From positions 400,606-464,605 of IMG/VR virus record IMGVR_UViG_3300023174_000033: a stretch of 64,000 bases of DNA; one strand, given 5' to 3'. The translations under genes were made by a program, and so were the position numbers. How positions within the stretch are numbered: position 1 is the first letter of the stretch; each line of letters starts with the position of its first letter. Below, in pieces: positions 2,311 through 62,168 of this stretch. The DNA is from a virus. The notes below the pieces were generated by a model, which worked only from the letters and a program-made list of their open reading frames with translations, had not been told where the DNA came from and searched no databases.

Positions 2311-2435
2311 GAATCTTTACTTTTAACACAAATTAGCACCACCAAAATTTGCGACATGGCTTAGACTCAAAACCAAAATATATATCGCCCAAAAAAGGTT
2401 TAGTTTAGAAAACCTGGATTTATTATCCATACGAA

Positions 2436-3236: not shown

Positions 3237-3239
3237 ATA

Positions 3240-3270: not shown

Positions 3271-3575
3271 ATATTTTTCAATTTTTTTTCTCTTAAATAA
3301 TAAATTAATTTTTCCTCAGCCCATAAGAATATCTTAAGTCTTGGAATTAAGTATTCATCACTCCATCTTGTATGTTTTATATAACCTCTCAACTCCTCAA
3401 TAGTTCTTTGAACCGAATCTAAATCATGGAAAAAATTTCCAGAAGAACCATAATACAAAAAAACTACCTTAGTATCATTTTCTAGTATCTTATGTCCATA
3501 AACCTCTGGTTCATATTCATCTATTATGAAATAATCATTCTTACAAAGGTCAGTAAATATTTTAAGCTGAGACAT
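3258..3575 (-). CDS. Hypothetical protein with C-terminal R-x-K-K-L-x-x-I-L tail
   Basis: A 105-residue soluble protein of unrecognised family that ends Y-L-R-E-K-K-L-K-N-I-L-E-S. This is one of the isolated members of the C-terminal tail set described in the findings; it is not in an ATGA-coupled operon. It is divergent from the gene at 3592, and the 16 bases between them contain an ATATATA run that could serve either direction. Confidence 0.75.
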   Translation of the reverse strand: MSQLKIFTDLCKNDYFIIDEYEPEVYGHKILENDTKVVFLYYGSSGNFFHDLDSVQRTIEELRGYIKHTRWSDEYLIPRLKIFLWAEEKLIYYLREKKLKNILES

Positions 3576-3591
3576 AGTAATATATACTTAT

Positions 3592-17064: not shown

Positions 17065-17116
17065 ATTATCATTTATATTATTAAACTATAAAATGTTAAG
17101 TGAGTATAACATTATT

Positions 17117-18157
17117 ATGAATATTGAACTACAATACTTAGAACTCCTTAAAGATATATTAGAAAATGGTTGTTCAAAAGGTGATAGAACTGGAACAGGA
17201 ACTATCTCAGTCTTTGGAAGACAAATCAGGCACAAAATGTCAGAAGGATTTCCACTTCTCACAACTAAAAAAATGTATTTCAAAGGGGTTATTACTGAAC
17301 TTCTGTGGTTTTTGCGCGGAGATACAAATATTAAATATCTTTTGGACAATGATTGTCATATCTGGGATGGTGATGCTTGGGCTAACTATTCCAAAAAAGT
17401 GATTGCAAACAATTTACAACTTATTCCTGCAACGGATTTACCCAAAACAAAAGAACAATTCATTGAAAAAATCAAAACTGATCAGGATTTCGCTAATACG
17501 TGGGGTGAATTGGGTAAAGTTTATGGACATGGTTGGCGTAATTGGAATGATAGTATTGACCAAATAGCAAACCTAATCAAAGATCTTAAGACAAATCCAG
17601 ACTCTCGTAGACTTATGGTATCCGCCTGGAATCCCTCAGATTTACCAAATCAAGTTTTACCACCTTGTCATTATGGGTTTCAAGTTTATACAAGGGAATT
17701 AAGCCTTCCTGAAAGAATGGAACTTTGGGAAAAACTTCCTAATAAAGATGTTATGGATTTTCCTATTGGCCAATTAACAGATGAACAATATCATAAAGTT
17801 TTAACAGATATTGGCGTACCTGAAAGATCTATATCTTTAATGTGGTCACAAAGATCGATTGATAGTTTGCTCGGCTTGCCGTTTAATATAGCTTCTTATG
17901 CCACACTATTAGAAATTTTAGCAAAAGAAGTTAATATGGTACCAGATGAACTTATTGGAAATCTTGGTGATTGTCACATTTATAGTAACCACATTGAACA
18001 AGTAAAAGAACAGATTTCAAGAACACCATATAAATTACCAACCCTAAAATTTGAAGTTACAAATCTACTTGAAAATTTAATGGATTGGAAACCATCAGAT
18101 TTTTCAATCTTAAATTATGAATCTCACCCAGCTATAAAAGCTCCTCTGAGTAACTAA
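17117..18157 (+). CDS. thyA: Thymidylate synthase
   Basis: Converts dUMP to dTMP with methylenetetrahydrofolate. With the start at 17117 the protein has 346 residues. Catalytic Cys184 lies in L-P-P-C-H, Arg24 and R-R (164-165) bind phosphate, and Asn257 in P-F-N-I-A-S-Y is the residue that selects uracil; dCMP hydroxymethylases have Asp there. There are two insertions relative to the ~264-residue E. coli type (about 98-128 and 194-235). A terminator follows. With the FolD domain at 54811 it could support dTMP supply for an AT-rich genome. Confidence 0.93.
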   Translation: MNIELQYLELLKDILENGCSKGDRTGTGTISVFGRQIRHKMSEGFPLLTTKKMYFKGVITELLWFLRGDTNIKYLLDNDCHIWDGDAWANYSKKVIANNLQLIPATDLPKTKEQFIEKIKTDQDFANTWGELGKVYGHGWRNWNDSIDQIANLIKDLKTNPDSRRLMVSAWNPSDLPNQVLPPCHYGFQVYTRELSLPERMELWEKLPNKDVMDFPIGQLTDEQYHKVLTDIGVPERSISLMWSQRSIDSLLGLPFNIASYATLLEILAKEVNMVPDELIGNLGDCHIYSNHIEQVKEQISRTPYKLPTLKFEVTNLLENLMDWKPSDFSILNYESHPAIKAPLSN

Positions 18158-37928: not shown

Positions 37929-38903
37929 TTAAGGAGCGGCAAAAGTAGTTCTTCCACCACCAGTAGCAAACGTAGCTAACATTCTTGATTTCTGACCAGC
38001 AGAGAACATATACATACAAGCATCATCAGTATAATCCATATAGTTCATAGTCATTTCAATAGGTGTTCCAGTACAAGTGGATCTATGACCAGCAGCTGGA
38101 CAACCATAGTTTGCAGTATTATGAGTTGGAGTATCTGTAACTAGATCAGAACCACAAGTTGCATCTCCCCAAATGTGACGAAGGTTTAACCAGTGTCCAA
38201 CTTCATGTGTAGCGGTTCTGCCTTTGTTGAATGGAGCTGCGGCAGTTCCAGTTCTTCCAAATGCAGTGTTTAAGATAACAACACCATCAGTCGCAGAAGA
38301 ACCACCTGGGAATTGAGCATATCCTAAGATACCATTTCCAAGAGTACAAGCCCATAAATTAAGATAGATAGTTGGTGAAGTTGGGTTTAATCCACCAGAA
38401 GCAGTTTTCTTAACAGCATCATTTGTAGACCAAGAAGTCTTTGTTGTGGCCTTACGAGTTACACCTTGTAAAACAAAACGGATATTAGTGGCACCAGCTT
38501 TAACACCTGTAAAAGTAGAAGGGACTAAAGATACATCAGTATTTGTGCCACCAAAATCTTCATTTAAAACATCAATTTGTGATTGGATTTGAGTTTGTGA
38601 AATGTTTTCAGCAGTTGTTCTATACAATACATTAACCCAAACAGGAATTTCATAAACACCGTTTACTAACCTACCCATTCTCATAAGGTTTTGATTGGTC
38701 TCAAGGTTTCTTTCAATTTCATCCATTCTTGATTGAAGCTGAGGGTCTTCTTGGAGTTTCTGTTGTAAAACTTCCATAGAAGCACATTGTCTACCAGCAA
38801 ATTGTGGTTCAGATGTCTTGATAGAAGAAATATCCTCTGACTTTTGACAAGCGGTAAATCCTAGTATGGCTAGAACAAAACCGAATAATTTTAGTTTTTT
38901 CAT
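37929..38903 (-). CDS. M43-family (pappalysin-like) zinc metalloprotease lipoprotein
   Basis: 324 residues. Signal peptide with lipobox F-T-A-C at residues 16-19. Catalytic H-E-V-G-H-W-L-N-L-R-H and the downstream M-N-Y-M-D-Y Met-turn define a metzincin of the M43 (cytophagalysin/pappalysin) family, common in secreted Bacteroidota proteins. Paired cysteines in the catalytic domain are kept. TATATATAAC precedes the start at ~35 bases. Cell-surface proteolysis would be its role; in a phage it may help release or exclusion, or be recently acquired from a host. Confidence 0.88.
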   Translation of the reverse strand: MKKLKLFGFVLAILGFTACQKSEDISSIKTSEPQFAGRQCASMEVLQQKLQEDPQLQSRMDEIERNLETNQNLMRMGRLVNGVYEIPVWVNVLYRTTAENISQTQIQSQIDVLNEDFGGTNTDVSLVPSTFTGVKAGATNIRFVLQGVTRKATTKTSWSTNDAVKKTASGGLNPTSPTIYLNLWACTLGNGILGYAQFPGGSSATDGVVILNTAFGRTGTAAAPFNKGRTATHEVGHWLNLRHIWGDATCGSDLVTDTPTHNTANYGCPAAGHRSTCTGTPIEMTMNYMDYTDDACMYMFSAGQKSRMLATFATGGGRTTFAAP

Positions 38904-38950
38904 TTAAGATTATTTTATTTTTTAGTTATATATAAAAACAATATTTGGGT

Positions 38951-39184
38951 TTATTCCAAAATCTTGTGGATTTTATATTGTCGGATTTCTTCTAAATTTC
39001 TTTCCATGAAAGTTTCATAAACTATTTTTTTCGCTTCTGAATTATCTGGTAACACATTTGCACAGCAAGTAAAGTCAGGACAACACTCATCATCTATTTG
39101 ATTATGTTTTGATACTCCACCCATCCAATCAAGAAGTTGCTCGTAACTTCTTATACTGTATCCTGTTTTTTTATTTCTATACAT
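38951..39184 (-). CDS. Tail-bearing protein with D-E-C-C-P-D-F motif
   Basis: 77 residues. D-D-E-C-C-P-D-F-T-C-C places four cysteines in a compact motif that recurs, to my knowledge, in small phage proteins of unknown function. It ends L-E-E-I-R-Q-Y-K-I-H-K-I-L-E. It overlaps the upstream gene by 8 bases. Confidence 0.75.
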   Translation of the reverse strand: MYRNKKTGYSIRSYEQLLDWMGGVSKHNQIDDECCPDFTCCANVLPDNSEAKKIVYETFMERNLEEIRQYKIHKILE

Positions 39185-39437
39185 TGTCTATTATACCCTC
39201 AATAATTTTATTTCTCTTATTTTGAAACTCTATTTGTTTATATTCTTCTTCAAAAAATATTCTATTAGCTAACTCAACAATTTGGTCATGAGCTTGGTCT
39301 GGACTTATCATACCACCCCATCTTTTTCTTTTTATCTGTTCACTATCAATTGATGTTAATATAGATATAGCTGCTAGTAGTAACTTACCCTCGTCTATAT
39401 TAGTGTCAATTTGTCTAAATTCTTCTACCTTTATCAT
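39177..39437 (-). CDS. Hypothetical protein with divergent tail
   Basis: 86 residues: L-L-L-A-A-I-S-I-L-T-S and P-D-Q-A-H-D-Q-I-V-E-L-A-N-R-I-F-F-E-E-E-Y, a helical pattern seen in small phage proteins. The end, Q-N-K-R-N-K-I-I-E-G-I-I-D-N-V, can be read as a tail variant. A terminator lies upstream and no clear promoter is visible. Confidence 0.65.
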   Translation of the reverse strand: MIKVEEFRQIDTNIDEGKLLLAAISILTSIDSEQIKRKRWGGMISPDQAHDQIVELANRIFFEEEYKQIEFQNKRNKIIEGIIDNV

Positions 39438-39441
39438 ACAT

Positions 39442-39475
39442 AAAAAAACCCCACACTTTGGGTGTGGGGTTTTTA
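39442..39475 (-). terminator. Terminator of the 541/530-residue secreted protein gene
   Basis: CCCCACAC (39449-39456) pairs with GTGTGGGG (39462-39469), with A- and T-runs. It follows the stop at 39491. Confidence 0.85.
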
Positions 39476-39490
39476 TTAAAAAAATCTCAA

Positions 39491-41083
39491 TTAGTTTTTA
39501 ATAAACTTAACTGTTTCTTTAGTACTGTTTGATGTGAGGGTAAGGAAATAAACACCATTAGCAAGATTGTTAATAGAAACTTCTTGTGTAGGAGTGTCAT
39601 AAAGTTCCCCATCCATAGAACCTTCGGTCATTAATTTACCTTGGGAATTTCTAATAGAATAGTTATATACACCCTCCTCAGCGATAGTAGCAATAAATTC
39701 AATTTTATCACTTACAATGTTTCCATTTACAATTTCAAGTGGGAACATTTCCTCAGGTACACCACCGTCCATGAAAGTTGATTCACCTTCAACGATTGCT
39801 CTACGAACATTAACAGATCCCTCACAAGAAAATCCGATAGGAGTTGAACCTGGAGGAGGTGGAGGAAGTTGAGAAATAATGATGTTGTCCATATCATATC
39901 CATCTGCACCACTACCGAAATCAGCAGGGTTTGAAGCATCTTGGAATTTTATGAAATTAACGATTGAGAACTCAGGTCCGAAAGAAGATAGGTCAATAGC
40001 AGCTGATGTTCCAGCGATGCCAAGAGCATCTTTACAGATAAGTACAGTACTAGACCAATTTACACCATCAGCAGACACACTTACGTTTGCTTTCTCAGGG
40101 TAACTTGGACAAGGTTGGTTGTTCCAAGTTGTTTCAAAAGAAAAGAATTCAGCACCAGGACCATTAAAAACGGTATAAGGAAGTTGTAGACAAGCCCAAC
40201 CACCGAATCCAAGTGACCAGAAGTTGTAAGAACCACTAGCTGGTCCAGAATCACGAAGACCTGGGTTAGATAAAGCAGCTGATGGGAATCCAATTTCATT
40301 GATATTAGCGTTAGCGAAATTCTTACGAACACCAACAATACCACGGCCAGGGAAATTACCAGCAGCTCCAACAAATTGTGAAGCAACTCCTTGTTGATAT
40401 TCACAAATTGGTGAGGTTGGGGTATTGCCAGCAGTAGGCATTTCATAATTCACTGTGATACCATCAACATCATAACCATCAACACCATCACCTTGAACAT
40501 TCCAAGCTGGATTTGTTCTATCAGTAATACGTACATATTGAGCTTTCATAAGAGGGAAAATATCAAAAGAACCATTGTAACAAGTATTGTAAGCACCACC
40601 TGGTCCCAAAGTAATTGTACCAGGAGTAATCCAATTAACACCATCTTCGGAAACTTCTACAAGAGCTTGTTCTGAATTTGTTGGACGACACGTAGGATTT
40701 CCCCAAGTAGTTTCGTGGATAGTGATGTCATTACCAACTCCATTAGAAATCCATTCAGATGAACGAAGTACCATTTCACCACCGAATCCAAGAGATACGA
40801 AGTTCATAGCACCAGTGATATCAGATTGTTCAGCCACTAAAGCTTTACTCGGAATAGAACGAGCACCTACGGGATAACCCAAAGTATTACCAGGATTTCC
40901 AGCACCTGGACTCAGCACCCGTGAAGATTTTGCGGTGTTTCCGGATCTGAGTGAACTAGCAACGTGACCACGGGCAGGTCCTTGCTTCACACACATAACT
41001 TCCCAAGTCATAGCTTGAGAATTCTGAAGGGTTGTGAAAATTCCACCAACCACAGCAGTTAACATTAGAAAAAGGTTTTTCAT
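39491..41083 (-). CDS. Secreted protein with type IX sorting domain and duplicated domain
   Basis: I start it at the ATG at 41083 (M-K-N-L-F-L-M-L), 530 residues with a signal peptide ending S-Q-A. Two ~140-residue repeats follow, each with E-T-T-W-x-N, V-S-x-D-G-V-N-W and D-G-Y-D-[MV]-D-[NG]-I. The last ~75 residues (E-E-G-V-Y-N-Y-S-I-R-N-S-Q-G-K, N-G-V-Y-F-L-T-L, E-T-V-K-F-I-K-N) are a Por/type A sorting domain. It should cross the host outer membrane by the type IX system. Binding partner unknown. Confidence 0.85.
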   Translation of the reverse strand: MKNLFLMLTAVVGGIFTTLQNSQAMTWEVMCVKQGPARGHVASSLRSGNTAKSSRVLSPGAGNPGNTLGYPVGARSIPSKALVAEQSDITGAMNFVSLGFGGEMVLRSSEWISNGVGNDITIHETTWGNPTCRPTNSEQALVEVSEDGVNWITPGTITLGPGGAYNTCYNGSFDIFPLMKAQYVRITDRTNPAWNVQGDGVDGYDVDGITVNYEMPTAGNTPTSPICEYQQGVASQFVGAAGNFPGRGIVGVRKNFANANINEIGFPSAALSNPGLRDSGPASGSYNFWSLGFGGWACLQLPYTVFNGPGAEFFSFETTWNNQPCPSYPEKANVSVSADGVNWSSTVLICKDALGIAGTSAAIDLSSFGPEFSIVNFIKFQDASNPADFGSGADGYDMDNIIISQLPPPPPGSTPIGFSCEGSVNVRRAIVEGESTFMDGGVPEEMFPLEIVNGNIVSDKIEFIATIAEEGVYNYSIRNSQGKLMTEGSMDGELYDTPTQEVSINNLANGVYFLTLTSNSTKETVKFIKN

Positions 41084-41182
41084 AAAATTTTTATAGTTTT
41101 TTCTTTTATATATCATGAAAAATGGGTGAAGTTTAAGATTTCACCCATTTTTTCTTTGTACTTTTCCAAGATCCTTAAAAAA

Positions 41183-41350
41183 CTAACTGGTTTTTTTATC
41201 TTTCTCCTCTAAATATTTAAGAGCTTCTTTATATCCTTTTACGAATCCGGTAATTTCCGCTGATCTATGTCCGGTAAAAAATGTTTCGTTAAAAGGGTTG
41301 TAGGGTATTAACTTTTCAGCTAATTCTCTAATTTCTTGATCAGATTTCAT
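41183..41350 (-). CDS. 55-residue helical protein
   Basis: Starts at the ATG at 41350 (M-K-S-D-Q-E-I-R-E-L-A), 3 bases after the stop of the tail-bearing gene. Helical, with T-G-H-R-S-A-E-I-T-G-F-V-K-G-Y-K-E-A-L in the middle, a common signature of short phage and bacterial proteins of unknown role. Confidence 0.65.
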   Translation of the reverse strand: MKSDQEIRELAEKLIPYNPFNETFFTGHRSAEITGFVKGYKEALKYLEEKDKKTS

Positions 41351-41353
41351 AAC

Positions 41354-41737
41354 TTATTTATTAAATAAATCGTTTAATTTTCTATCTCTTATTTCTTGTT
41401 TGAAAAATTGAAATTGATAATCCATATATTGACAATTAAAATTGTAATCAGTTGGGACTGTTTCATAAGGTTGGTGACGAGTTCCGAATTTACCACTTAA
41501 TTCAAAATGTATCCCACCTGCAACATAAATATTGACTTTCATTATGTATCTTTCCGAACCTCTGAAAGTTATTGTATGTGCTCCTAATTCTGGTACTAAT
41601 ATCACACAGGTGTCTAAATTCCAAATTTGTGGTAATTCTTTTTTAACTTTGAACCCAATAGACACAAGGAAATCTCTAGCTTCTTTTACTTTTTCGAAAC
41701 CTTCGTAGTTTTCCTCTATGTAAATGTTTTCATCCAT
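41354..41737 (-). CDS. Tail-bearing protein
   Basis: 127 residues. The core resembles the product at 36372: V-K-E-A-R-D-F-L-V-S-I-G-F, an I-T-F-R-G-S-E-R-Y beta stretch and W-N-L. It ends Q-E-I-R-D-R-K-L-N-D-L-F-N-K. The start lies directly after a terminator, so a weak promoter or read-through must express it. Confidence 0.7.
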   Translation of the reverse strand: MDENIYIEENYEGFEKVKEARDFLVSIGFKVKKELPQIWNLDTCVILVPELGAHTITFRGSERYIMKVNIYVAGGIHFELSGKFGTRHQPYETVPTDYNFNCQYMDYQFQFFKQEIRDRKLNDLFNK

Positions 41738-41740
41738 AAT

Positions 41741-41769
41741 AAAAAAAACCCTCCTTTTTAGGGAGGGCT
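41741..41769 (-). terminator. Terminator of the Calx-beta-like secreted protein gene
   Basis: CCCTCC (41749-41754) pairs with GGAGGG (41762-41767), followed leftward by a T-run. Confidence 0.8.
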
Positions 41770-41775
41770 TTGACT

Positions 41776-43089
41776 TTACTTAACAAAATTTGTAACTACC
41801 ACTTTGTCACCACTCCTAACCATCGCCCGATAAACTCCACTTGGTTTAGTTCGGATTTTATCAAGGTCTTGATTCACATTATTATTATTTGTTTTAATAA
41901 CAAGTTGTCCAAATGAATTGTAAATATAAACTTCTCCGGCAAAATTACTTGGAAAGTTTGTTCTTAAAGTTCCATTTTGATAGTAGAAATAAGAACGAAC
42001 ATCATTTAGTTTTTTAGCTGACAAAATTCCAGGAATTACAATAGTGCAAATTGAATCAGCTCCCAAGTTGTAATTGTCGGAAGTCTTTTTCAATTTGAGA
42101 TAAAATTTCTCATAACCTTCAGATTGATCGTCGTTATTAATCGTAATTCCGAAACTAGTAGTTGTGGTTCCAATCGGAAAAGTCGCAAGTGCCGGTTGTT
42201 GTAAGATAAAATCAGCAGAATCAGTGTCTACATTCTGTACAGAAATCAAACAAGCAATCTGTTGATTTACTGGTACCGTAGAATTTAGTGGCATACTGAG
42301 AACAGTACCTTCCTCAATAACATAATTCGTATCAGCAAAACTGATTACAGGAATTTCAAGGGGGGCGGATGGTGTGATATCAGCAGAAGACCTTGGGAGA
42401 AGTTGGTACCTTGAATCTCTTGGAATAGAGGAATCAAACTGACCACCCATACCTACAACATCAACTTTACCAGTTGGAACAGGTGCTCCGAAAAGGTCAC
42501 AATCATTATCAATACGAACATCAAACTCTTGATAATCAGTTGTGCCAGCAACTCCTCTGAAAGCTTTAGCGGTAAATCCAGAACCACTTGGCACAGCTGG
42601 CCAGCTATTTGGTAGAAATTCTAAATTCTGCATTTTAACCAAGTAGGATTCAGAAACCTCACTCAAATCGGTAACGACTCTTGGTTGTGTTAATTGACAA
42701 TTGGTTTTTAGAATTTTAATTGTATCAATTACAATTTGTGATAGTCCGTTGAAACAGTTTACCATTCCGATAACTTTAACACTATCACCTTCGTTCAAAG
42801 TAACTCCGATATCAAGTGTAGCTTTAAAAAGCCCAATTCCACATCGGTTGCTTAACAAAGTATCAGCTCGTTTCTCAACGAGACTTAGTTGGATTCGCCC
42901 GTTAGCTAATCCAAAATTCTTTCCATAAACGACTCCTTGTGTCCTAACAAACACCGAGTCATAATCCGAACAACCACCTTGGGTTGTGTCCAAACCTCTG
43001 ATTTCATCCACATTCAAACTTAGAATTTGAGGCTGTGAAAACAGAGACATACTAATTAGTAGAAAAATTGTTGTAAAAATGTATCTCAT
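41776..43089 (-). CDS. Secreted protein with type IX sorting domain
   Basis: 437 residues. Signal peptide (ending L-F-S-Q). Residues ~25-215 form an OB-like/DUF5689-like region (F-V-R-T-Q-G-V-V-Y-G, D-S-V-K-V-I-G-M-V-N). About 240-350 resembles a Calx-beta domain (I-E-E-G-T-V-L, N-D-D-Q-S-E-G-Y-E). The C-terminal ~75 residues (G-E-V-Y-I-Y-N-S-F-G-Q-L-V, S-G-V-Y-R-A-M-V, V-V-T-N-F-V-K) are a type IX sorting domain. Second of two adjacent cargo proteins. Confidence 0.82.
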   Translation of the reverse strand: MRYIFTTIFLLISMSLFSQPQILSLNVDEIRGLDTTQGGCSDYDSVFVRTQGVVYGKNFGLANGRIQLSLVEKRADTLLSNRCGIGLFKATLDIGVTLNEGDSVKVIGMVNCFNGLSQIVIDTIKILKTNCQLTQPRVVTDLSEVSESYLVKMQNLEFLPNSWPAVPSGSGFTAKAFRGVAGTTDYQEFDVRIDNDCDLFGAPVPTGKVDVVGMGGQFDSSIPRDSRYQLLPRSSADITPSAPLEIPVISFADTNYVIEEGTVLSMPLNSTVPVNQQIACLISVQNVDTDSADFILQQPALATFPIGTTTTSFGITINNDDQSEGYEKFYLKLKKTSDNYNLGADSICTIVIPGILSAKKLNDVRSYFYYQNGTLRTNFPSNFAGEVYIYNSFGQLVIKTNNNNVNQDLDKIRTKPSGVYRAMVRSGDKVVVTNFVK

Positions 43090-44828: not shown

Positions 44829-45296
44829 TTAGTTCAAGTCTGACCAATCTGGATCTTTGAAATTAATTCCTTTTAGAACTTTAGCATCAACAGTTCGTTT
44901 GATTATGTACTTACCATCGGATAGCTTTTCATAATATGTAGATAAATCTCTTTCCGTATATAAAAGTACCGATTTATGAGCTTCCTCCTCATTTTCACAA
45001 AGTTTACTCATATTTGATTCATAGACTCTTTCTACAATTTTCTCAACATCTAATCCATGAATTGCAGCAGCTTGATAAACAACAAAAAACAAATCAGCAA
45101 CAGCATCCGCAACCTCGTCTAACCTTGGATCGTATTGTCTATCACTATTCCATAGAGCGGATTTTAGTTCCCTCAATTCCTCTTCGATCAATCGGAAAGC
45201 AAGTTCACTTTCTTTTTCATTTGTGATTTTGGGAGTGGTACGGTTTGGTAGACCAAATGTCTCTCTCCAGTGTTTGATTTTTTCAAGTGCGTTCAT
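44829..45296 (-). CDS. MazG-like nucleoside triphosphate pyrophosphohydrolase
   Basis: From the ATG at 45296 (M-N-A-L-E-K-I-K-H-W-R-E), 155 residues. E-E-E-L-R-E-L near 37-43 and D-E-V-A-D-A-V-A-D near 57-65 give the E-x-x-E...D/E-x-x-D metal site of all-alpha NTP pyrophosphatases. Phage MazG-like enzymes hydrolyse non-canonical nucleotides or lower (p)ppGpp signalling in infected cells. The upstream extension overlaps the divergent gene and is probably not used. Confidence 0.85.
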   Translation of the reverse strand: MNALEKIKHWRETFGLPNRTTPKITNEKESELAFRLIEEELRELKSALWNSDRQYDPRLDEVADAVADLFFVVYQAAAIHGLDVEKIVERVYESNMSKLCENEEEAHKSVLLYTERDLSTYYEKLSDGKYIIKRTVDAKVLKGINFKDPDWSDLN

Positions 45297-45384
45297 AAGA
45301 TTTGTGAAATATTTTAAGTTATATACTATTAGATTAAAAGTTTTTTGGGTGGACAAAGTTATTAAAAATTTTAATATATATGTC

Positions 45385-47325
45385 ATGCTTACAAATTTTG
45401 ACGATTACATCTATGAGGAATATCTCAAATTAGACCTACCACTTTATTATACCAAAGAATTAAAATCTACACTCGGAGCAATTGCATCTAAAGGAGATTC
45501 AGTAGCTAGTTTTCTTTATTATGGAGAATCCACAGATGCTGTGAAATCAGATATTACTTTTGTAGGTTTAGGCGAAGGTAATGATAAGGTAAGTTTTATT
45601 CAAGTCAATCGTGTCCTTAGAATGATCGATAAAGAACTAGGCGATCCAGAATCTAAAAATCAAGGAACTCTCAAGGGGCAATTAGAGGAAGATTATATTA
45701 ATAAAATATGGAGAATCAAACAAAATTTTGACCACCCAGCTTGGAAAGAACAAAGAACTGAATTGGGTGTGGGTAGATTTGCAACTAAGATTTCACAAAA
45801 AGCTGGTAAAAACTTCACACCACCACAAATAAATGCATTCGTTGATAAGTTTAAAGCTTACAGAGATTTCCAAACCACAAAGAAAGATAAGTTTGAATTA
45901 GTATCAGGTGAGGATATCAGAAAATGGTATGATGAAGATACTTACGAAGATGCAGAATATCACCTATCAAACTCTTGTATGAGGTATGCTAGATGTCAAA
46001 GGTATTTAGACATATATGTTGAAAATCCAAATCAAGTTTCAATGGTTATCCTAAAAGGAACTGATCCTAATAAAATCATTGGTAGAGCTCTTATTTGGAA
46101 ATTAGAAAATGGGAATTATTACTTAGATAGACCTTATGCTAATAATGATGAAGATATAAATTTATTCAAAGAGTGGGGTAGAAGTAAAGGTTATACTGTC
46201 TATGGGGCTAGCTATGACCACAAAGAAGTAGTATTGGATAAGGCTAATTTTTCCTACTACCCATATATGGATACTTTCAAATATCTAAATAGAGATGATA
46301 AAACACTAAGCACTGATGCAAACGAATATGATAATGGTAATCAAGATTGGATTAAATTAGAAAGTACTGGAGGTGATTTTGAAGAAGTAGAAAGAGGTGT
46401 TTATTCTGAATATTATGGTGAATATATTGATGAAGATAGTGCTGTTTTTGCGGAAGATATACAAAGTTATATACATTCAGATGATGCTTATTATTTAGAA
46501 TATAAAGACACATATGTTCACAATGATGCTGACGTGGTATATTCTGAATTTGATGGTCAATACTATTTAAGTGAAGATGCCATTAAGTCTGAATATTTAG
46601 ATACTTATATCTATTCAGATGATGCACTAAATGTATTTACCTCACCAGATGAGGAAGATTATGTGCCAGACTCATTCAGAGAGAAAGGATTAGTTAAAGA
46701 ATATTATTTAGATGGTTCACCAAAATGGTGTATATCTGCAAATGTATTTAAAAGCCCATTCTCCAATGAGTATTTCTTTAGAACTGGGACTGTCAAAGTA
46801 TTCACTGTGCAAGATGGTGGACTGATGACACAAAATGAGGCAGATACTAAAGACATAGATACCAAAGGTCTTGAATCTGACTATATGGAAATTGATGATT
46901 ATCTATCAAAAAGAATTAAACCTTTAACCAAAGATCAATTTACAGAAAAGGTCAAGAGTTTAGAATTTACTGAAAATCAAATAAATGATTTCAAAAGGGA
47001 TAGTAGTTCACAATTATATACTCTCAATTCATTTTTTAGGGATGTTACACTTGATGAAATAGAAAGAATGATGAAACTTCTAATATGGCTTTCTTATAGT
47101 GCTAGTGAAAGAGATCAGTATGGTAAACCGAAAAGTAAAAATAGAAGGAATTTGATTGAATCAATGAAAAGTAAATGCCAAGAATTTATCACAAATGAAA
47201 GGTTCTATGGGTTACAAAGTATGAGCATAGAAAGTCTATTCCGAACAATGGATGCCAACCTTAGTGATTATATAAGAAACGAAGAATTATTAGCTCAAAT
47301 TATTCTTTATAAGAATAGTATTTAA
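45385..47325 (+). CDS. Large protein with repeated Y-S-E-Y / S-D-D-A blocks
   Basis: 646 residues from the ATG at 45385 (M-L-T-N-F-D-D-Y), preceded by TTTAATATATATG. The N-terminal half has S-C-M-R-Y-A-R-C near 195 and a domain with I-G-R-A-L-I-W. Residues ~335-430 hold at least four imperfect repeats of a ~25-residue unit: Y-S-E-Y-Y-G-E-Y-I, Y-I-H-S-D-D-A-Y, V-H-N-D-A-D-V-V-Y, Y-I-Y-S-D-D-A-L. The repeats could be beta-hairpin or metal-free ribbon modules. No family recognised. Confidence 0.75.
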   Translation: MLTNFDDYIYEEYLKLDLPLYYTKELKSTLGAIASKGDSVASFLYYGESTDAVKSDITFVGLGEGNDKVSFIQVNRVLRMIDKELGDPESKNQGTLKGQLEEDYINKIWRIKQNFDHPAWKEQRTELGVGRFATKISQKAGKNFTPPQINAFVDKFKAYRDFQTTKKDKFELVSGEDIRKWYDEDTYEDAEYHLSNSCMRYARCQRYLDIYVENPNQVSMVILKGTDPNKIIGRALIWKLENGNYYLDRPYANNDEDINLFKEWGRSKGYTVYGASYDHKEVVLDKANFSYYPYMDTFKYLNRDDKTLSTDANEYDNGNQDWIKLESTGGDFEEVERGVYSEYYGEYIDEDSAVFAEDIQSYIHSDDAYYLEYKDTYVHNDADVVYSEFDGQYYLSEDAIKSEYLDTYIYSDDALNVFTSPDEEDYVPDSFREKGLVKEYYLDGSPKWCISANVFKSPFSNEYFFRTGTVKVFTVQDGGLMTQNEADTKDIDTKGLESDYMEIDDYLSKRIKPLTKDQFTEKVKSLEFTENQINDFKRDSSSQLYTLNSFFRDVTLDEIERMMKLLIWLSYSASERDQYGKPKSKNRRNLIESMKSKCQEFITNERFYGLQSMSIESLFRTMDANLSDYIRNEELLAQIILYKNSI

Positions 47326-47369: not shown

Positions 47370-48110
47370 ATGGACCCGTTTAGTGAGTCATTTGGTTTTG
47401 GTGAATATAAATCACAAGCAATAGATTTATTAAAAACTACCATCGAAATTTTAAATGAATTCGAAATACCAAACATGCTAATATCCGGCACTTTACTTGG
47501 ATATATCAGACACAATGATTTTATACCTTGGGATGATGACATAGACTTACTTGTTGATTCTTCAATCCTAAGAAAACTAGGTAAGATTGCTGAAAAATAT
47601 GATAACATTAATATTTTTTACAAAAATAAATATGATGCTATTAAATTCTGTTTTGATTTTGGAAAACCCATAAGTGATAAATCTTGGGAAATGTCAATAA
47701 TAGATGGTAAAATTCAAAGAAAATCAAAACTTAATTTTCCATTTGTAGATTTATTTATCTATGAATCTGGTTACGGGACTCATATTTGTGGACAAGAACA
47801 ACATATCGAAATTGATGGTGAAATTAGAAAAATGTTTATGCCCTTTTCTGGTCCTTGTGATAGGTGTTTTAGATTCATAAAATCGGATGAATTAGTTTTT
47901 TTTCACAACGATTGGAAGAAAAAGAACTTTTTCCCTCTACAAGAAGTAGATTTTTTAGGAATAAAATGTAATATACCTAAAAATCCCCACCATTTTTTAA
48001 AAAAAAATTACGATGGGGATTATATGAAAGTAATTGAGTCAAGAAACTACGACCATAAAAACAACTTAAAAGTAGAAAATATAACTAAAAAACCTTATGT
48101 TAGAAATTGA
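47370..48110 (+). CDS. LicD-family phosphotransferase
   Basis: 246 residues. L-I-S-G-T-L-L-G-Y-I-R (37-47) and F-I-P-W-D-D-D-I-D-L (51-60) are the LicD hallmark of a nucleotidyltransferase fold that moves phosphocholine, phosphoribitol or similar groups from a CDP carrier to glycans. An IspD-family cytidylyltransferase, which can make CDP carriers, is 2.3 kb away. Overlaps the next gene by 14 bases. Confidence 0.85.
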   Translation: MDPFSESFGFGEYKSQAIDLLKTTIEILNEFEIPNMLISGTLLGYIRHNDFIPWDDDIDLLVDSSILRKLGKIAEKYDNINIFYKNKYDAIKFCFDFGKPISDKSWEMSIIDGKIQRKSKLNFPFVDLFIYESGYGTHICGQEQHIEIDGEIRKMFMPFSGPCDRCFRFIKSDELVFFHNDWKKKNFFPLQEVDFLGIKCNIPKNPHHFLKKNYDGDYMKVIESRNYDHKNNLKVENITKKPYVRN

Positions 48111-49869
48111 AGAATTAAAAACACATTTGCCGACTGGTGTAGATGCAAAGATTATGCAGTATGAGGAAAATGCTACAAACATCTCCGATGATAAAATTGA
48201 TTTTCCTAAATTATTGGATGGCACACAAACTACCATACTCATAAATATGGAAAGACATACTGAGAGATATCATGTAAGTTTGGAACAATTAAAAAAACTA
48301 TCAATACAAAATTTTGTACACCTTAAAGGAACTGATGGTAAAATTAAATCTCAGTTGGAACAGGATCTAACTTACATCTTGGGGTTTATCAAACAATTCA
48401 ATGATAAGGTAGTTAGTAATCAAATAGAAATAAATGATTTCTCAGAAGTAAATAATCAAGGTGTAAATCTACAAGATGGACCACTTGGCTGTTATTGTTC
48501 ACATCTTAGAGCAATGATTTATGGTTACTTATCTGGTAGTGATTACACTATAATTTGTGAAGATGATATTTCTATTACAAACACAAAAAATATTGAGGAG
48601 TATATACCAAAAATTCCAAATGATTGGGATGTTATTTTCTTGAACTCAAGACCCAAAAATGTTTTACATGACGAACCTTATTATAAATTCATTGATGAAT
48701 TCCATTCTGGTCACTTTTATATTATCAAAAACAAAGCTCTACCTACCATATTTAGTGGTATGTACCCGATGAACGACCAAGTAGATGTTCTACTTTCTTT
48801 CTTACACAAGAAATTGAATATGTATAACATACCAGATACTGTTTATCAAAAGAACTTAGAAACCAATACCCAAAACAATCTTGATATTATTTTTAGTTCA
48901 CCTAACTATATTCCAGTAACAGATGCTTTAAACAAATCAGAAGAAATATTAAATCACTATGCTAATAAAATTCTTCCTGATAACACAGACCAAAATAGAT
49001 TGATTGTAAAGCATTTGATGTATGATATGATTTACAATTTTATACTAACTAAAGGCATTAATAACGAACCAGATCCCAACATAGAAGACTATGTTTTTGA
49101 TAATCCCCATATTGGAAAATGGAGATATACTAAGTTGGAAAAATTTGTTGGATTTTTCTTACAATGTACGAAAAAAGGAATTAACCCAAAGTTAGCTGGT
49201 CAAGGTTTAACAAATGCACTGTTATTTACTTTAAATAAGTTCACTGAATTACATGATACTGATGGAGATATTAAAGCTTATGGATTTGGATCGACTGCTC
49301 ATACCTACAAAGTTGGTAATGATTTGTTAATCAAAAGATATAATAAAAAATTGAGGTGGGCTACTGAAGGTCATGATGACCCCAAAAAAATTATGAATAA
49401 GGAAATAGAACTTTTGGAAAAATTAAAAAATGTAAAATCGGTTCCGAAAATAGTTGACTATGACAATAGAGATATCATTATGGAATATAGGGGGGAATCT
49501 ATCTATAATGATTTTAACTTACCTACTGATTGGAAGGATCAAATAACAAATATATTTTCTGAACTTACTAATAATGGTGTATTTTATCCAGAGTTTAGGT
49601 TGCAGAATATCCTTGTATTAGATGGTAAGATTAGTTTTGTTGATTTTGGTATGGCTGAGTTTAGGGATAAATGTGATAACGCTATCAATCTCGAAAAGTT
49701 TATTAAGTATTTGAGTTTACTTGAGGATAAGTTTAAGATTGTAATTGATTTAGATGCTAGACAAAGGTTGATTTCAACTTTTCTAAAAAATGTTAATATG
49801 CCAACGCCGACCATAGACCAGAAGTTTTCGGAAGGTATTGAACCATTGTTTGGTAATGACTTTTTTTAG
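48097..49869 (+). CDS. GT25 glycosyltransferase fused to a kinase-like domain
   Basis: 590 residues. The N-terminal ~260 are GT25: I-N-M-E-R-H-T-E-R, L-G-C-Y-C-S-H-L-R-A near 128-137 and I-I-C-E-D-D-I. A helical linker follows. The C-terminal ~200 residues look like an ePK/APH-type kinase: G-F-G-S-T-A-H-T-Y-K loop, L-I-K-R-Y (ATP-binding Lys), I-I-M-E-Y hinge, F-R-L-Q-N-I-L and V-D-F-G-M-A-E metal motif. Transfer and phosphorylation of a sugar by one polypeptide would fit LPS-type modification. Confidence 0.8.
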   Translation: MLEIEELKTHLPTGVDAKIMQYEENATNISDDKIDFPKLLDGTQTTILINMERHTERYHVSLEQLKKLSIQNFVHLKGTDGKIKSQLEQDLTYILGFIKQFNDKVVSNQIEINDFSEVNNQGVNLQDGPLGCYCSHLRAMIYGYLSGSDYTIICEDDISITNTKNIEEYIPKIPNDWDVIFLNSRPKNVLHDEPYYKFIDEFHSGHFYIIKNKALPTIFSGMYPMNDQVDVLLSFLHKKLNMYNIPDTVYQKNLETNTQNNLDIIFSSPNYIPVTDALNKSEEILNHYANKILPDNTDQNRLIVKHLMYDMIYNFILTKGINNEPDPNIEDYVFDNPHIGKWRYTKLEKFVGFFLQCTKKGINPKLAGQGLTNALLFTLNKFTELHDTDGDIKAYGFGSTAHTYKVGNDLLIKRYNKKLRWATEGHDDPKKIMNKEIELLEKLKNVKSVPKIVDYDNRDIIMEYRGESIYNDFNLPTDWKDQITNIFSELTNNGVFYPEFRLQNILVLDGKISFVDFGMAEFRDKCDNAINLEKFIKYLSLLEDKFKIVIDLDARQRLISTFLKNVNMPTPTIDQKFSEGIEPLFGNDFF

Positions 49870-49892: not shown

Positions 49893-50435
49893 ATGAACAA
49901 TTGTTTCAAACAAATTGATGTTAAAATTAAATTCAATGGGTCATTATCAGATATAAAATCTGACTTACACATGACTCATGACAAGTGGCAAAAATATGGA
50001 CTCACTCTAAAGAAAAAAGAAAATTATGAGGCTTCAATTGCAACTACATACGAGGTAACAGATCAAGTAAAATCATATGTACTCTCAAAAATCCCAACTG
50101 AATTACTTCAATTAGAAACACCAAAAGTTTGGTATCTTGAAGTTACTGGAACAAATAAAAGTACAACAATGGTTCCACCACACATTGACACTTTTAGGAT
50201 ATGTACAATAAATTTTTATATCAATACCAATGGCGAGACAACTAAATTTTACGAATATAAATCCGGAACTATTATAGATGAAATTGGTGAGTTTTGTGCA
50301 AAAGACAATGAATGTTTTATCCTAAACACCACCGTACCACATTCGGTAAAACTTATGTCAGAAAAAAAAAGATCGGTAATTGGAGCTTCGTTCATAAAGA
50401 CCCCATATGAAAAAGTAATAACTTATTTCTCTTAA
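49893..50435 (+). CDS. Putative 2-oxoglutarate/Fe(II) oxygenase
   Basis: 180 residues. P-P-H-I-D (H97, D99), V-P-H-S-V (H150) and K-R-S-V-I-G (R160) give the H-x-D...H iron triad and the Arg that binds 2-oxoglutarate, at the spacing usual for the double-stranded beta-helix fold. The substrate could be a protein side chain (Pro, Lys, Asp) or a small molecule. Its place next to GT25 genes in a genome with two collagen-like fibres raises the option of fibre hydroxylation. Confidence 0.65.
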   Translation: MNNCFKQIDVKIKFNGSLSDIKSDLHMTHDKWQKYGLTLKKKENYEASIATTYEVTDQVKSYVLSKIPTELLQLETPKVWYLEVTGTNKSTTMVPPHIDTFRICTINFYINTNGETTKFYEYKSGTIIDEIGEFCAKDNECFILNTTVPHSVKLMSEKKRSVIGASFIKTPYEKVITYFS

Positions 50436-51040
50436 AAAATATCTTCCAAGGTAGTTATCTTCCTCAAGTATCTATAATGTCCACCTATCAATTCATATTT
50501 CATATCAAACCTACTAACAACAGGTAAAATTTCACACTCCTCACCTGTTTGAATATAGGTGTTAAAAATGTGTTTGAATAAATCAAAGTTAGTTATTTGT
50601 GGAGAACAAAGCTCAATGAAATCATTTCGGTTTGGTATAACGTATCCAACATCTTTCAATTGAGCTAGGCCGTTTAGCATCGGTAAATAAAATTGAGAGT
50701 GTAGATTTTTATTTGAACTTTCTAAAAGCCTTTCCACCATTGACTCTGTGATATAAGGTCTAGCAGCATCATGAATTAGAATGTTTGAACACTTGTCAAT
50801 GTTGGATAGTGCAACTTTTATAGATTCCAATCTTGAATCGTTATCTGTTAGCAAAACGTCACCATATATTTTTAAGTAACAATCTGAATTAGCAACGATA
50901 ATCACATCGTCAAGATATTTGGAAAATAGATCAATTGAATGTTGAACCATAGGTTTATCACCTATAGGATATAATTGTTTTGGAATTTCCGAATTAAATC
51001 GAGTTGATTTACCAGCGGCTAATATAACACCTATGTTCAT
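50432..51040 (-). CDS. IspD-family cytidylyltransferase
   Basis: 202 residues. L-A-A-G-K-S-T-R-F (7-15), P-K-Q-L (20-23) and I-H-D-A-A-R-P (near 88-94) match the CTP site of IspD/TarI/LicC-type enzymes. It is ~25 residues shorter than typical IspD, mostly at the C-terminus. Next to LicD, making a CDP-alcohol donor for glycan decoration is more likely than isoprenoid synthesis. Convergent overlap of 4 bases with the oxygenase gene. Confidence 0.85.
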   Translation of the reverse strand: MNIGVILAAGKSTRFNSEIPKQLYPIGDKPMVQHSIDLFSKYLDDVIIVANSDCYLKIYGDVLLTDNDSRLESIKVALSNIDKCSNILIHDAARPYITESMVERLLESSNKNLHSQFYLPMLNGLAQLKDVGYVIPNRNDFIELCSPQITNFDLFKHIFNTYIQTGEECEILPVVSRFDMKYELIGGHYRYLRKITTLEDIF

Positions 51041-54810: not shown

Positions 54811-56574
54811 ATGAAATTACTCGATGGAAAAAAGGCTTCTAAAATAATACTTTCTGAATTAAAATATAAAATAAAAAAAATTACTGAAAGAAATAATGAA
54901 ATAAAAATACCAAAAATTGCGATAGTTCTGGTCGGTGATAATCCTAGCAGTATGTCTTATATGAGGTCAAAACTAAAGATATCATCGGAAAATAATTTCA
55001 ATGCTCAATTGTTTTTTTATTCTGACTTTATAAAAGAAGATGAATTGCTAAACGAAATTGATAAGTTAAACAATTCATCAGATATTGATGGGGTCATAGT
55101 TGAACTACCCCTACCAAATCAAATATCCCAAGAAAAAATAATTAACCGAATTGATCCACAAAAAGATATTGATGGCTTCAATCCGATTAACTTTGGCAAA
55201 ATGTCTCTTGGCCAAAAAGCACACAGACCCGCTACAGCTTATGGTATTCTAAAACTTCTGGAATTTTACAAAATTTATACAACGAGCAAACACATTGTTG
55301 TTATTGGAAGATCAAATATAGTTGGAAAACCTATATCTATAATGTTAGGAAATGACTTTGATATTGGTAGAGCGACAGTAACTTCATGTGATATAAACAC
55401 ACCAATTGAACTATTAAGAGAAGAATCAAGAAGAGCTGATATTATAATCGTAGCAGTTGGTAAAGTAAATCTTTTAAAAGAAGATATGGTAAAGGATGGT
55501 GCCATAGTTATTGACGTTGGCATAAATATGGTTGGTGATACAATCGTAGGAGATTGTGATTTTGAAAACGTATCTCCGAAATGTGAATGGATCACACCTG
55601 TTCCAGGTGGTGTTGGCCCAATGACAATTTGTGCACTTCTTTTGAACACATTTGCAACTTGGTATGAAAAAAATAAAATACTTGAAGAAAAGATAAATTC
55701 AATTGACTACACAGTTAAACTGATTGAGAGTCTAGACCAAAGTTTCTCACCCACCACGGATGGAAAAAAACTAATCGGAACCTACGATCATAATAGAATT
55801 CCAGGTGATAATGAAGTAATTCATGTCATAGGTGATTATCCAGTCGGAAAGCATTCACTAATAACAGAAAATCCAAGTTTCAGACATTATAAATGGGCAA
55901 TGAAGTTCAGCTATGATTCATTTGAGGGTAATACCTGTTGGGATGGAATTGATGATATTTGGATCATCAACGATACCGTTAGACAAGATAGACTTTATGA
56001 TACCCTGAAAGAATTCAAGAAAATTGGGATACCGCTCAATAAAGTAAAAATACAACCAGCCGAATTCAATAGTTCAACCGGTAATAATTACGCAAATAAA
56101 CTAATTGGATGTTTCAAATCACACCTTAAAATATTTGAACAATATCAAGATAAAGATTTTAAACATTTATTAATTTTTGAAGATGATTTTACTTTTTCCG
56201 ATCCGATTGAAGAGTCACAAAGACAAATTAGAGAATTTGTCTCAAGAGACTATGAATATGATGTGATGTTATTCTCAACAAGTTGTATCGGTCAAATAAT
56301 TCCAATTGATGATTTGATAAGTGAATCAAAACAACCTTGTACAACAACTGCTGGTTATATGGTCTCAAAGAAGGGACTTGAAAAAATTATACCACTTTGG
56401 CACGAAGGAATAAACGGTCTACTTGGATGGTGTGATTTCAATCAATTTGCTTGTGATAAATATTGGACAAAAATTCAGAAAGATGGACAAATGTTTTCTT
56501 TTAACGCAAAAATTGGATACCAAAGACCAAGCTATAGTACAACTCTTGGCAATTTGAGTTACAATTTAGATTAA
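54811..56574 (+). CDS. FolD domain fused to a GT25-like glycosyltransferase
   Basis: 587 residues. Residues 1-285 are FolD (methylenetetrahydrofolate dehydrogenase/cyclohydrolase): Y50-x-x-x-K54, V-E98-L-P-L-P, K-D-I-D121-G-F-N-P, V-I-G-R-S-N-I-V-G-K-P near 168-178 and P-V-P-G-G-V-G-P-M-T. The usual Gln at 98 is Glu. Residues ~300-587 resemble GT25: G-C-F-K-S-H-L-K-I-F and L-L-I-F-E-D-D-F. I know of no such fusion. It may join one-carbon metabolism and glycosylation, or only co-translate two enzymes. Thymidylate synthase at 17117 uses the same folate pool. Confidence 0.85.
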   Translation: MKLLDGKKASKIILSELKYKIKKITERNNEIKIPKIAIVLVGDNPSSMSYMRSKLKISSENNFNAQLFFYSDFIKEDELLNEIDKLNNSSDIDGVIVELPLPNQISQEKIINRIDPQKDIDGFNPINFGKMSLGQKAHRPATAYGILKLLEFYKIYTTSKHIVVIGRSNIVGKPISIMLGNDFDIGRATVTSCDINTPIELLREESRRADIIIVAVGKVNLLKEDMVKDGAIVIDVGINMVGDTIVGDCDFENVSPKCEWITPVPGGVGPMTICALLLNTFATWYEKNKILEEKINSIDYTVKLIESLDQSFSPTTDGKKLIGTYDHNRIPGDNEVIHVIGDYPVGKHSLITENPSFRHYKWAMKFSYDSFEGNTCWDGIDDIWIINDTVRQDRLYDTLKEFKKIGIPLNKVKIQPAEFNSSTGNNYANKLIGCFKSHLKIFEQYQDKDFKHLLIFEDDFTFSDPIEESQRQIREFVSRDYEYDVMLFSTSCIGQIIPIDDLISESKQPCTTTAGYMVSKKGLEKIIPLWHEGINGLLGWCDFNQFACDKYWTKIQKDGQMFSFNAKIGYQRPSYSTTLGNLSYNLD

Positions 56575-57031: not shown

Positions 57032-57682
57032 ATGATTGATTTTGATGTTAAAACACCAACTCTTCTTTGCGAATTAATGCAAAAATATGGAAGTGATAAA
57101 GGTGGTGAGAATTTAGAAAAAACTTGGCATAATTACACACCCGTTTACAATTCCCTTTTTGAGAATATCAGGTTTGATAAATTAAAAGTATTTGAGCTTG
57201 GCCTTGGAACTAATAATACTCAGGTACCATCAAATATGGGTAAAGATGGTAAACCAGGAGCTTCTTTATACGCTTGGGCAGACTTTTTTCCAAACTCCCA
57301 AATCTTCGGAGCAGATATTGATAAGGAAATTCTATTCAACACTGAAAGAATCAAAACTTATTTTTGTGACCAAACTAACCCATTTGAAATTAAAAAAATG
57401 TGGAACGATGCTGACCTCTATGGACAATTTGATATCATACTTGAGGACGGTTTACATGAATTTGCGGCTAACGTCACATTCTTTGAAAACAGTATTCACA
57501 AACTATCAAAGAATGGATATTTTATAATTGAGGACATAGCAAACAAGGAAATTCCTCTTTTCAAAATTAAAATTGAGGAGTGGAAAAGTAAATATAATAA
57601 TATCAGTTTTGATCTCCTAATTCTCCCGACTTCAGTAAATTGGATTGATAATAATTTACTTATTTGTAAAAAATTGTTCTAG
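57032..57682 (+). CDS. SAM-dependent methyltransferase of the sugar/LPS type
   Basis: 216 residues. K-V-F-E-L-G-L-G-T near 52-60 is motif I; I-F-G-A-D-I-D near 90-96 is motif II; F-D-I-I-L-E-D-G-L-H-E near 130-140 is the acidic motif. K-Y-G-S-D-K-G at the N-terminus is typical of glycan-linked methyltransferases (CmcI/MT_24-like). It probably methylates a sugar on envelope or virion glycan. Overlaps the convergent gene by 4 bases. Confidence 0.75.
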   Translation: MIDFDVKTPTLLCELMQKYGSDKGGENLEKTWHNYTPVYNSLFENIRFDKLKVFELGLGTNNTQVPSNMGKDGKPGASLYAWADFFPNSQIFGADIDKEILFNTERIKTYFCDQTNPFEIKKMWNDADLYGQFDIILEDGLHEFAANVTFFENSIHKLSKNGYFIIEDIANKEIPLFKIKIEEWKSKYNNISFDLLILPTSVNWIDNNLLICKKLF

Positions 57683-58367: not shown

Positions 58368-59096
58368 ATGGCAAAGAAATTTGAAATATCAGATACCATT
58401 GACCTCTATTTCAAAGAAATTGAGAAGGTATCATCACCTCTTACTAAAAAAGAGGAACACGCACTTGCTGTAAAAATACAAGCAGGTGATACAAATGCTT
58501 TGAACGAATTGGTTTTACACAACCTAAAATTCGTTGTATTACTCGCAAACAAATTTATTGGAATGGGTGTTAATATTGATGATTTAATCCAAGAAGGTAA
58601 TGCTGGTTTGATTGAAGCCGCTAAAAGATTCACATCCGATAAAGACACAAGATTTATAACATATGCTCAATTTTGGATAAGAAAATATCTTAATGAATCA
58701 ATTGTGGAATATGGCAGAACAGTAAAACTACCACACAATAAAGAGTATGATATTTATAAACAAAAAGTTGCTGGAGAATGGGAGGGAAATTTACACAATG
58801 TGGAATTGGACAAAACCATGGGTGATGAAAATGAAGATACTTTAGGCGACCACATATTATCTGAAGAATTTTCAGATCCATTTCAAAACGAAGAACAAAA
58901 TAATCAACTAATTTTTTTCTTAAACAAATTAACACCCGAGGAGATAAAAATAACAAAACTATTTTATGGAATTGAACAAACTTCATCATTATCAACAAGA
59001 GAGGTTGGAAATATAGTTGGAATAGAAGAGTCAAAGGTTAATAGAATTCTAAAAATTGCAAGAAGCAAAATGAGAAAAGCAATTACAAAAAAATGA
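58368..59096 (+). CDS. Sigma-70-family RNA polymerase sigma factor
   Basis: 242 residues. Region 1.2/2.1: D-T-I-D-L-Y-F-K-E-I (5-14), N-L-K-F-V-V; region 2.2: D-D-L-I-Q-E-G-N-A-G-L-I-E-A-A; 2.3-2.4: T-R-F-I-T-Y-A-Q-F-W-I-R-K-Y; region 4.2 helix-turn-helix: S-T-R-E-V-G-N-I-V-G-I-E-E-S-K-V-N-R-I. Region 3 is shortened and replaced by an acidic stretch. Being shorter than host RpoD (~290 in Bacteroidota), it is a phage factor, likely directing host polymerase to phage promoters. Overlaps the next gene by 4 bases. Confidence 0.92.
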   Translation: MAKKFEISDTIDLYFKEIEKVSSPLTKKEEHALAVKIQAGDTNALNELVLHNLKFVVLLANKFIGMGVNIDDLIQEGNAGLIEAAKRFTSDKDTRFITYAQFWIRKYLNESIVEYGRTVKLPHNKEYDIYKQKVAGEWEGNLHNVELDKTMGDENEDTLGDHILSEEFSDPFQNEEQNNQLIFFLNKLTPEEIKITKLFYGIEQTSSLSTREVGNIVGIEESKVNRILKIARSKMRKAITKK

Positions 59097-61196: not shown

Positions 61197-62168
61197 ATGA
61201 TAGTAGTCACTGGCGCTTTGGGTTTTATAGCCTCTTGCCTTATTTCAAAACTAAACACTGATGGGTTCAACGAAATTGTAGCAGTTGATGATTTTTCACC
61301 ATCAACCCTTTTCAGAAAAAAAAATCTTAATGATAAACAAATTTCAAAGTATATCAATAGAGAAGAATTCCCCAAATGGTTAGAAGATAATCAAATAAAT
61401 GTTGATTTTATTTTTCATTTGGGAGCTAGAACAGACACTATGGAGAAATCCAAAGATATTTTTGATAAGTTTAATTTTAACTACTCTAAAGAACTATACA
61501 GTATCTGCACAAAATATCAAATTCCAATTCTATATGCTTCATCAGCAGCGACTTATGGTTCGGGAGAACTTGGATATGTAGATTATGAACCACTTATTTC
61601 AGAATTAAAACCACTGAATCCTTATGGTGAGTCAAAACAAAATTTTGACATTTGGATACTTGAACAAGAAAATAAACCTTATTTTTGGACCGGTCTTAAA
61701 TTCTTCAACGTTTATGGTCCTAATGAGTACCACAAAGGTAAAATGGCTTCGGTTATTTACCACTCATATAAACAAATAAAGGAAAACCAAAAACTTTGCC
61801 TATTTCAATCTCACAAAGAGGGTATTGAGAACGGACACCAAAAAAGAGATTTTATCTATGTTAAAGACGTGGTTGATGTTATGATTTGGTTTTTCAACAA
61901 GAGGATAAATTCAGGTATTTATAATCTTGGAAGCGGACAGGCAAGAACTTTTTTAGATGTAGCTAAAAGTGTTTTCAACTCTTTAGATATAGAAGAGAAT
62001 ATTGAATTCACACCAACACCTATTGAAATCCGAGATTCTTATCAATATTTCACACAAGCTAATATGGATAAAATCAGGTCTGCCGGATATGACAGACCCT
62101 TTACTAGTTTAGAGGATGGCATTGAAGATTACGTTAAGAATTATTTAAATTTAGAAAAAATTCTATAA
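61197..62168 (+). CDS. NAD-dependent epimerase, HldD-like
   Basis: 323 residues. G-A-L-G-F-I-A (6-12) is the Rossmann loop; S-S-A-A-T-Y-G and Y-G-E-S-K give the catalytic S/Y-x-x-x-K; F-N-V-Y-G-P-N-E-Y-H-K-G-K-M-A-S-V and G-H-Q-K-R-D-F-I-Y-V-K-D-V-V-D-V are typical of ADP-glyceromanno-heptose 6-epimerase. The third Gly of the usual G-x-x-G-x-x-G loop is Ala here. It supplies a heptose for LPS-like glycan. Overlaps the fibre gene by 6 bases. Confidence 0.85.
   Translation: MIVVTGALGFIASCLISKLNTDGFNEIVAVDDFSPSTLFRKKNLNDKQISKYINREEFPKWLEDNQINVDFIFHLGARTDTMEKSKDIFDKFNFNYSKELYSICTKYQIPILYASSAATYGSGELGYVDYEPLISELKPLNPYGESKQNFDIWILEQENKPYFWTGLKFFNVYGPNEYHKGKMASVIYHSYKQIKENQKLCLFQSHKEGIENGHQKRDFIYVKDVVDVMIWFFNKRINSGIYNLGSGQARTFLDVAKSVFNSLDIEENIEFTPTPIEIRDSYQYFTQANMDKIRSAGYDRPFTSLEDGIEDYVKNYLNLEKIL

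Follow-up and report, generated by a model that had tools for sequence, protein, structure and literature searches.

A jumbo phage, whose host is probably a member of the Bacteroidota, encodes a FolD protein that is fused to a glycosyltransferase of the GT25 type and that carries a Glu in place of the active-site residue Gln98. The gene occupies positions 54811..56574 on the plus strand of the window, the last 64 kb of an IMG/VR record of 464,605 bases that may itself be incomplete, and it consists of a single uninterrupted frame of 587 amino acids plus stop. Three Pfam domains, all scoring above their cut-offs, are present in the deduced protein: PF00763 at residues 4-121 (5.5e-30; 104.4 bits vs. 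a cut-off of 32.8), PF02882 at residues 124-284 (2.5e-56; 189.9 vs. 27), and Glyco_transf_25 (PF01755) at residues 413-527 (3.5e-10; 40.5 vs. 24). The match to the PHROGs FolD family spans residues 1-283. When the end of stand-alone phage FolDs (residue ~290) and the start of stand-alone GT25 proteins (~378) are taken as borders, the protein divides into a FolD half (residues 1-290; 54811..55680, plus strand), a linker filling the span between the domains (residues 291-377; 55681..55941, plus strand), and a GT-A glycosyltransferase domain of the GT25 type, also delimited by Pfam, alignment and predicted structure (residues 378-587; 55942..56571, plus strand). The description of one reading frame with two domains given in the original prediction is thereby borne out. 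An antisense open frame (55275-55649, minus strand) overlies the FolD part and is open in relatives as well; we interpret it as a side effect of how a conserved gene uses its codons. A search of Rfam returned no RNA element near the fusion gene.

Within the collections that we searched, FolD-GT25, a domain architecture new to an otherwise known enzyme family, is represented by a single copy. None of 174 other FolDs (94 in records of phages or viruses, 80 in cellular genomes; 134 distinct sequences, with some of the viral records carrying host genes at contig edges) possesses an extension of the size of a glycosyltransferase, and neither IMG/VR nor the GenBank phages yielded a relative covering more than 80% of the whole protein or a second copy of this phage. 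In 148 Bacteroidota genomes, the frames with FolD matches are almost without exception 290-360 residues long. Five that exceed 400 residues were considered as FolD fusions and dismissed, as their additional residues lie upstream and are unlike GT25, and their C-terminal extensions amount to 1-12 residues. Viewed from the other partner, the phage GT25 relatives that we examined are stand-alone proteins, one of them joined to another glycosyltransferase-like domain and none to FolD. The expectation that the fusion lacks a known precedent has thus held among these FolDs, in IMG/VR and in the GenBank phages: the proposed search for the same domain pair produced no other example there, and none of the 174 FolDs combines the fusion with Glu98. 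Phage FolD is usually regarded as a nucleotide-supply gene; the fusion indicates that it can also become tied to a gene for the modification of glycans.

Residues of the FolD half are numbered here as in E. coli FolD by alignment, the E. coli letters being identical to those of PDB entry 1b0a. Three of the four members of the catalytic set Tyr50/Lys54/Gln98/Asp121 are kept, and they are the three that had been named in advance: the substrate-stacking Tyr50 (54958..54960; PMC3368264), the catalytic Lys54 (54970..54972; PMC3368264; PMC5688156), and the pterin-binding Asp121 (55171..55173; PMC3338484), all on the plus strand. Position 98 is specified by a GAA codon (55102..55104, plus strand), one base removed from the Gln codon CAA, and the predicted replacement of Gln98 by Glu is now anchored on 1b0a. 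Since Gln98 is found in 174 of the 174 other FolDs and the fusion in none of them, the finding lies beyond chance. The cofactor motif GRSNIVGKP and the PVPGGVGPMT motif are intact. With the FolD/MTHFD family (PF00763 + PF02882; E. coli FolD 1b0a) the fusion protein thus shares a full-length match to both domains, Tyr50, Lys54, Asp121 and the cofactor motifs; it differs from this family by Glu98 and the GT25 domain, and it scores under every NCBIfam equivalog cut-off shown. The exchange of the fourth catalytic residue makes a bifunctional FolD less credible but does not bear on descent from FolD, and judged by its sequence the N-terminal half is a descendant of this enzyme.

Gln98 has been studied for its role in the active site and in inhibitor resistance, and mutants of human Gln100, relevant to this position, were reportedly described by Sundararajan and MacKenzie in 2002 (cited in PMC3368264). 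Gln98 positions the catalytic lysine (PMC3338484), whose amino group has to be unprotonated for both reactions (PMC3368264). A Glu98 contacting Lys54 would favor the protonated lysine. The E. coli Q98H variant retains ~8% of its dehydrogenase and ~1% of its cyclohydrolase activity (PMC5688156), which makes a cyclohydrolase defect likely in the phage enzyme as well; a clean bias toward the dehydrogenase step does not follow, because the dehydrogenase of Q98H has itself fallen to ~8%. By analogy, the Glu98 FolD is likely to be severely impaired as a cyclohydrolase while retaining part of its dehydrogenase activity, although Q98H is not Q98E and a Glu is perhaps better tolerated. Consequently, the suggestion that Glu98 biases the enzyme to the dehydrogenase step is plausible as far as the loss of cyclohydrolase is concerned, in view of the role of Gln98 and the Q98H data, but not as a clean bias. 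With Glu98 occurring naturally, this enzyme makes it possible to ask directly whether nature can uncouple the dehydrogenase from the cyclohydrolase step.

In a tree of 41 FolDs, the fusion FolD falls within a jumbo-phage clade of stand-alone Gln98 FolDs (support 98/92 and 99/97), where its sister is the FolD of a 508-kb phage record (L026; support 90/89). It is 54-62% identical to the FolDs of LR745206, L026 and other IMG/VR jumbo-phage contigs, sharing the clade of LR745206 and L026, and 59-62% identical to its nearest relatives; the FolDs of Prevotella Lak phages are more distant stand-alone relatives. The stand-alone jumbo-phage FolDs end near residue 290 and carry Gln98, whereas the fusion protein has the GT25 domain attached and carries Glu98. 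One FolD inside this clade (L126, 2501-3379) lies on contig PXFS01000055.1, which is filed under a Flavobacteriaceae metagenome-assembled genome and may be phage. The end branch of the fusion FolD is long, with a length of 0.77 as compared with 0.10-0.29 for most clade mates and 0.53 for the more distant L019. A three-way rate test across 119 orthologue triples, in which this record was compared with that of the sister phage L026 and the L030 record served as outgroup, revealed 56 private changes in the fusion FolD vs. 21 in its sister; this ratio of 2.63 ranks seventh of the 119 (equal-rates p ~8e-5), the genome-wide median of 0.91 being balanced. The most uneven of the 119 orthologues is a MazG/PRA-PH-like gene (44829-45386, minus strand) with 49 private changes vs. 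8 in the sister phage. At 13 positions the fusion FolD alone departs from eight clade mates, and 10 of these lie in the folate/catalytic domain (residues 1-121), among them A46S, E48M, A57I and Q98E; this skew is modest and was spotted post hoc (p ~0.01, an estimate from domain lengths). As the fusion FolD is nested among stand-alone Gln98 FolDs and sits on a faster branch, both Glu98 and the fusion are derived states.

The glycosyltransferase part was modeled on its own (residues 285-587), and a GT-A domain was predicted with confidence. Its best solved match is human COLGALT1 (Z 20.4, rmsd 2.6 A, 186 aligned residues), followed by mimivirus R655 (Z 16.5, rmsd 3.5 A, 182 aligned) and bacterial beta-1,4-galactosyltransferases (Z up to 15.7, rmsd 3.1 A, 165 aligned). 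The C-terminal half had been described as GT25-like with an E-D-D site, and this agrees with the PF01755 match and with the residues E457-D458-D459 (56179..56187, plus strand), which are invariant in the GT25 alignment. The GT-A fold, the E-D-D motif, and conserved Arg/Asp and Gln positions are shared with the GT25 family at large (PF01755; COLGALT1, the bacterial beta-1,4-galactosyltransferases, and phage GT25 proteins of ~215 amino acids). On the basis of the model, the C-terminal half is thus a GT-A domain with an E-D-D metal/sugar-nucleotide motif, a fold that does not settle its sugar or its acceptor. The same phage, whose record holds four GT25 domains in four genes, also encodes a 954-residue protein with long collagen-like repeats (20793-23657, minus strand). 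This collagen-like fibre would be an attractive target given that the nearest solved glycosyltransferase is a collagen galactosyltransferase; we found nothing that directly connects the two, and we do not claim it. The ~87-residue linker has no relatives among the fetched sequences, and structure prediction renders its first part helical and the remainder with low confidence.

The surroundings of the fusion gene point to surface or virion glycans, as judged by the gene families found there. Upstream lie a LicD-family gene (47370-48110), a gene for a second GT25 fusion of this phage, in which the GT25 domain (residues 45-180) is followed by a RIO/Bud32-like kinase-type domain (48097-49869, plus strand), and an IspD-like cytidylyltransferase gene (50432-51040); downstream, there is a methyltransferase gene (57032-57682) and the LPS heptose gene for ADP-glyceromanno-heptose 6-epimerase, HldD (61197-62168, plus strand; above the NCBI cut-off). 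The GT25-RIO/Bud32 gene, LicD and the nearby IspD-like cytidylyltransferase resemble a phosphocholine- or teichoic-type decoration set. In a 344-kb relative (L226), a run of genes on the same strand lies downstream of FolD; on inspection by eye these resemble glycosyltransferase genes and a methyltransferase gene, and one of them, ~3 kb downstream of FolD, is GT25-like (1.6e-13). As GT25 genes are common, this FolD-GT25 neighborhood, seen in one relative out of a handful of phages, could be due to chance. In another relative (L020), the start of FolD overlaps the end of a gene for a 572-residue protein (2275-3993) that has no Pfam match and whose C-terminal part is 30% similar to the methyltransferase encoded at 57032-57682. 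The FolD neighbors in other members of the clade belong to nucleotide metabolism, e.g., PRPP synthetase, MazG-like genes and DHFR (assigned partly by eye). The window further contains an M43 peptidase gene together with genes for two proteins with weak matches to type IX secretion sorting domains (37929-43089, minus strand), which are secreted features of the Bacteroidota type, and a gene for a sigma-70-type factor with regions 1.2, 2 and 4 (58368-59096, plus strand).

These data lend themselves to a model to which we assign a probability of about 0.5. In a jumbo phage that probably infects Bacteroidota, a Gln98 FolD gene inherited from a phage-specific clade of stand-alone enzymes would have been joined in frame, via the linker, to a GT25 gene from the adjoining glycan cassette. 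The folate domain would also have gained active-site changes, the exchange of Gln98 for Glu among them. The result would be a chain with two independently folding modules. The N-terminal one would act as a methylene-tetrahydrofolate dehydrogenase that depends on NAD(P) and has a strongly impaired cyclohydrolase step, since Glu98 should pair with and protonate the normally neutral Lys54; the C-terminal one would be a metal- and UDP-sugar-dependent GT-A enzyme whose acceptor is a glycan or glycoprotein of the surface or the virion. We infer here the order of fusion and substitution, both activities, the pairing of Glu98 with Lys54, the sugar, and the acceptor.

Solved structures show FolD to be a homodimer. 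It is therefore conceivable, if on balance rather unlikely, that the FolD half is catalytically dead and has been kept as a dimerising NAD(P)- or folate-binding scaffold for the glycosyltransferase. The concentration of the faster change in the catalytic domain, the alteration of a universally conserved active-site residue, and the near-elimination of cyclohydrolase by the comparable Q98H mutation would all fit such a scaffold, but Tyr50, Lys54, Asp121 and both motifs are intact, and the protein departs from only 4 of 53 near-invariant FolD positions, fewer than some other phage FolDs. A related and similarly doubtful proposal holds that FolD, either as a dehydrogenase-only enzyme or as a non-catalytic dimeric sensor of folate and NAD(P), carries the glycosyltransferase and thereby couples glycan transfer to one-carbon or redox state; if true, the architecture would be new, and so perhaps would this mode of glycosyltransferase regulation. 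That Glu98 is simply tolerated by a still fully bifunctional enzyme, with the fusion being a neutral joining of adjoining genes, appears distinctly unlikely to us. It would fit with the preservation of all remaining key residues and with the exchange of Gln for Glu being the most conservative replacement, but it is at odds with the invariance of Gln98 in the 174 FolDs and with our pattern searches: when 395 Bacteroidota genomes were scanned with a degenerate Glu98 pattern, no FolD emerged (the one match was another protein), whereas the corresponding Gln98 pattern had matches in 36 of 61 genomes. None of the nine matches of the Glu98 pattern in IMG/VR was a FolD.

We consider it improbable that the gene is an artefact, whether through chimeric assembly of a FolD gene with a GT25 gene or through one erroneous base in codon 98, even if the fusion is known in a single copy and one base suffices to turn CAA into GAA. 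The two halves lie in one frame without a stop, the base composition is similar across its three parts (GC 0.31, 0.36 and 0.31), and the wider set of private changes is beyond the reach of one wrong base. The linker attains an in-frame codon-usage score of 0.134, close to the range of the genes of this phage (0.251 +/- 0.089; 5th percentile 0.142) and far from that of off-frame windows (-0.643). Since its codon usage suits the frame, the linker does not look like newly translated non-coding DNA, and the frameshift between the halves that the original prediction had allowed for is absent.

The original prediction had also pointed to ThyA in the same genome and to a GT25 gene next to it, both of which are indeed present side by side in the record, and had considered a link to nucleotide or sugar hypermodification. 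A coupling in which FolD provides one-carbon units to build a modified sugar or nucleotide, later transferred by the glycosyltransferase, would accommodate the co-occurrence of FolD, ThyA and GT25s in one record, and yet we judge it very improbable. ThyA (17093-18157, plus strand) scores 332.6 bits against a cut-off of 108.35 for the NCBI thymidylate synthase model TIGR03284 and aligns with solved thymidylate synthases across the catalytic cysteine and the GLPFNIASYA segment; by these sequence criteria, it is a canonical thymidylate synthase. The glycosyltransferase has relatives among the enzymes that glycosylate proteins and lipooligosaccharides and is similar to collagen and bacterial beta-1,4-galactosyltransferases, and its neighbors are of the glycan/LPS type, none of which lends support to nucleotide hypermodification. 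The sugar variant fares no better: our search of the record found no DHFR, SHMT, formyltransferase or DegT/sugar aminotransferase, so that no folate-to-sugar pathway can be drawn, and N-formylation of a sugar was set aside given the lack of a formyltransferase and a sugar aminotransferase in the record. To our knowledge, no pathway passes a substrate from FolD to a glycosyltransferase. ThyA itself contains an insertion of ~40 residues that follows the segment with the catalytic cysteine.
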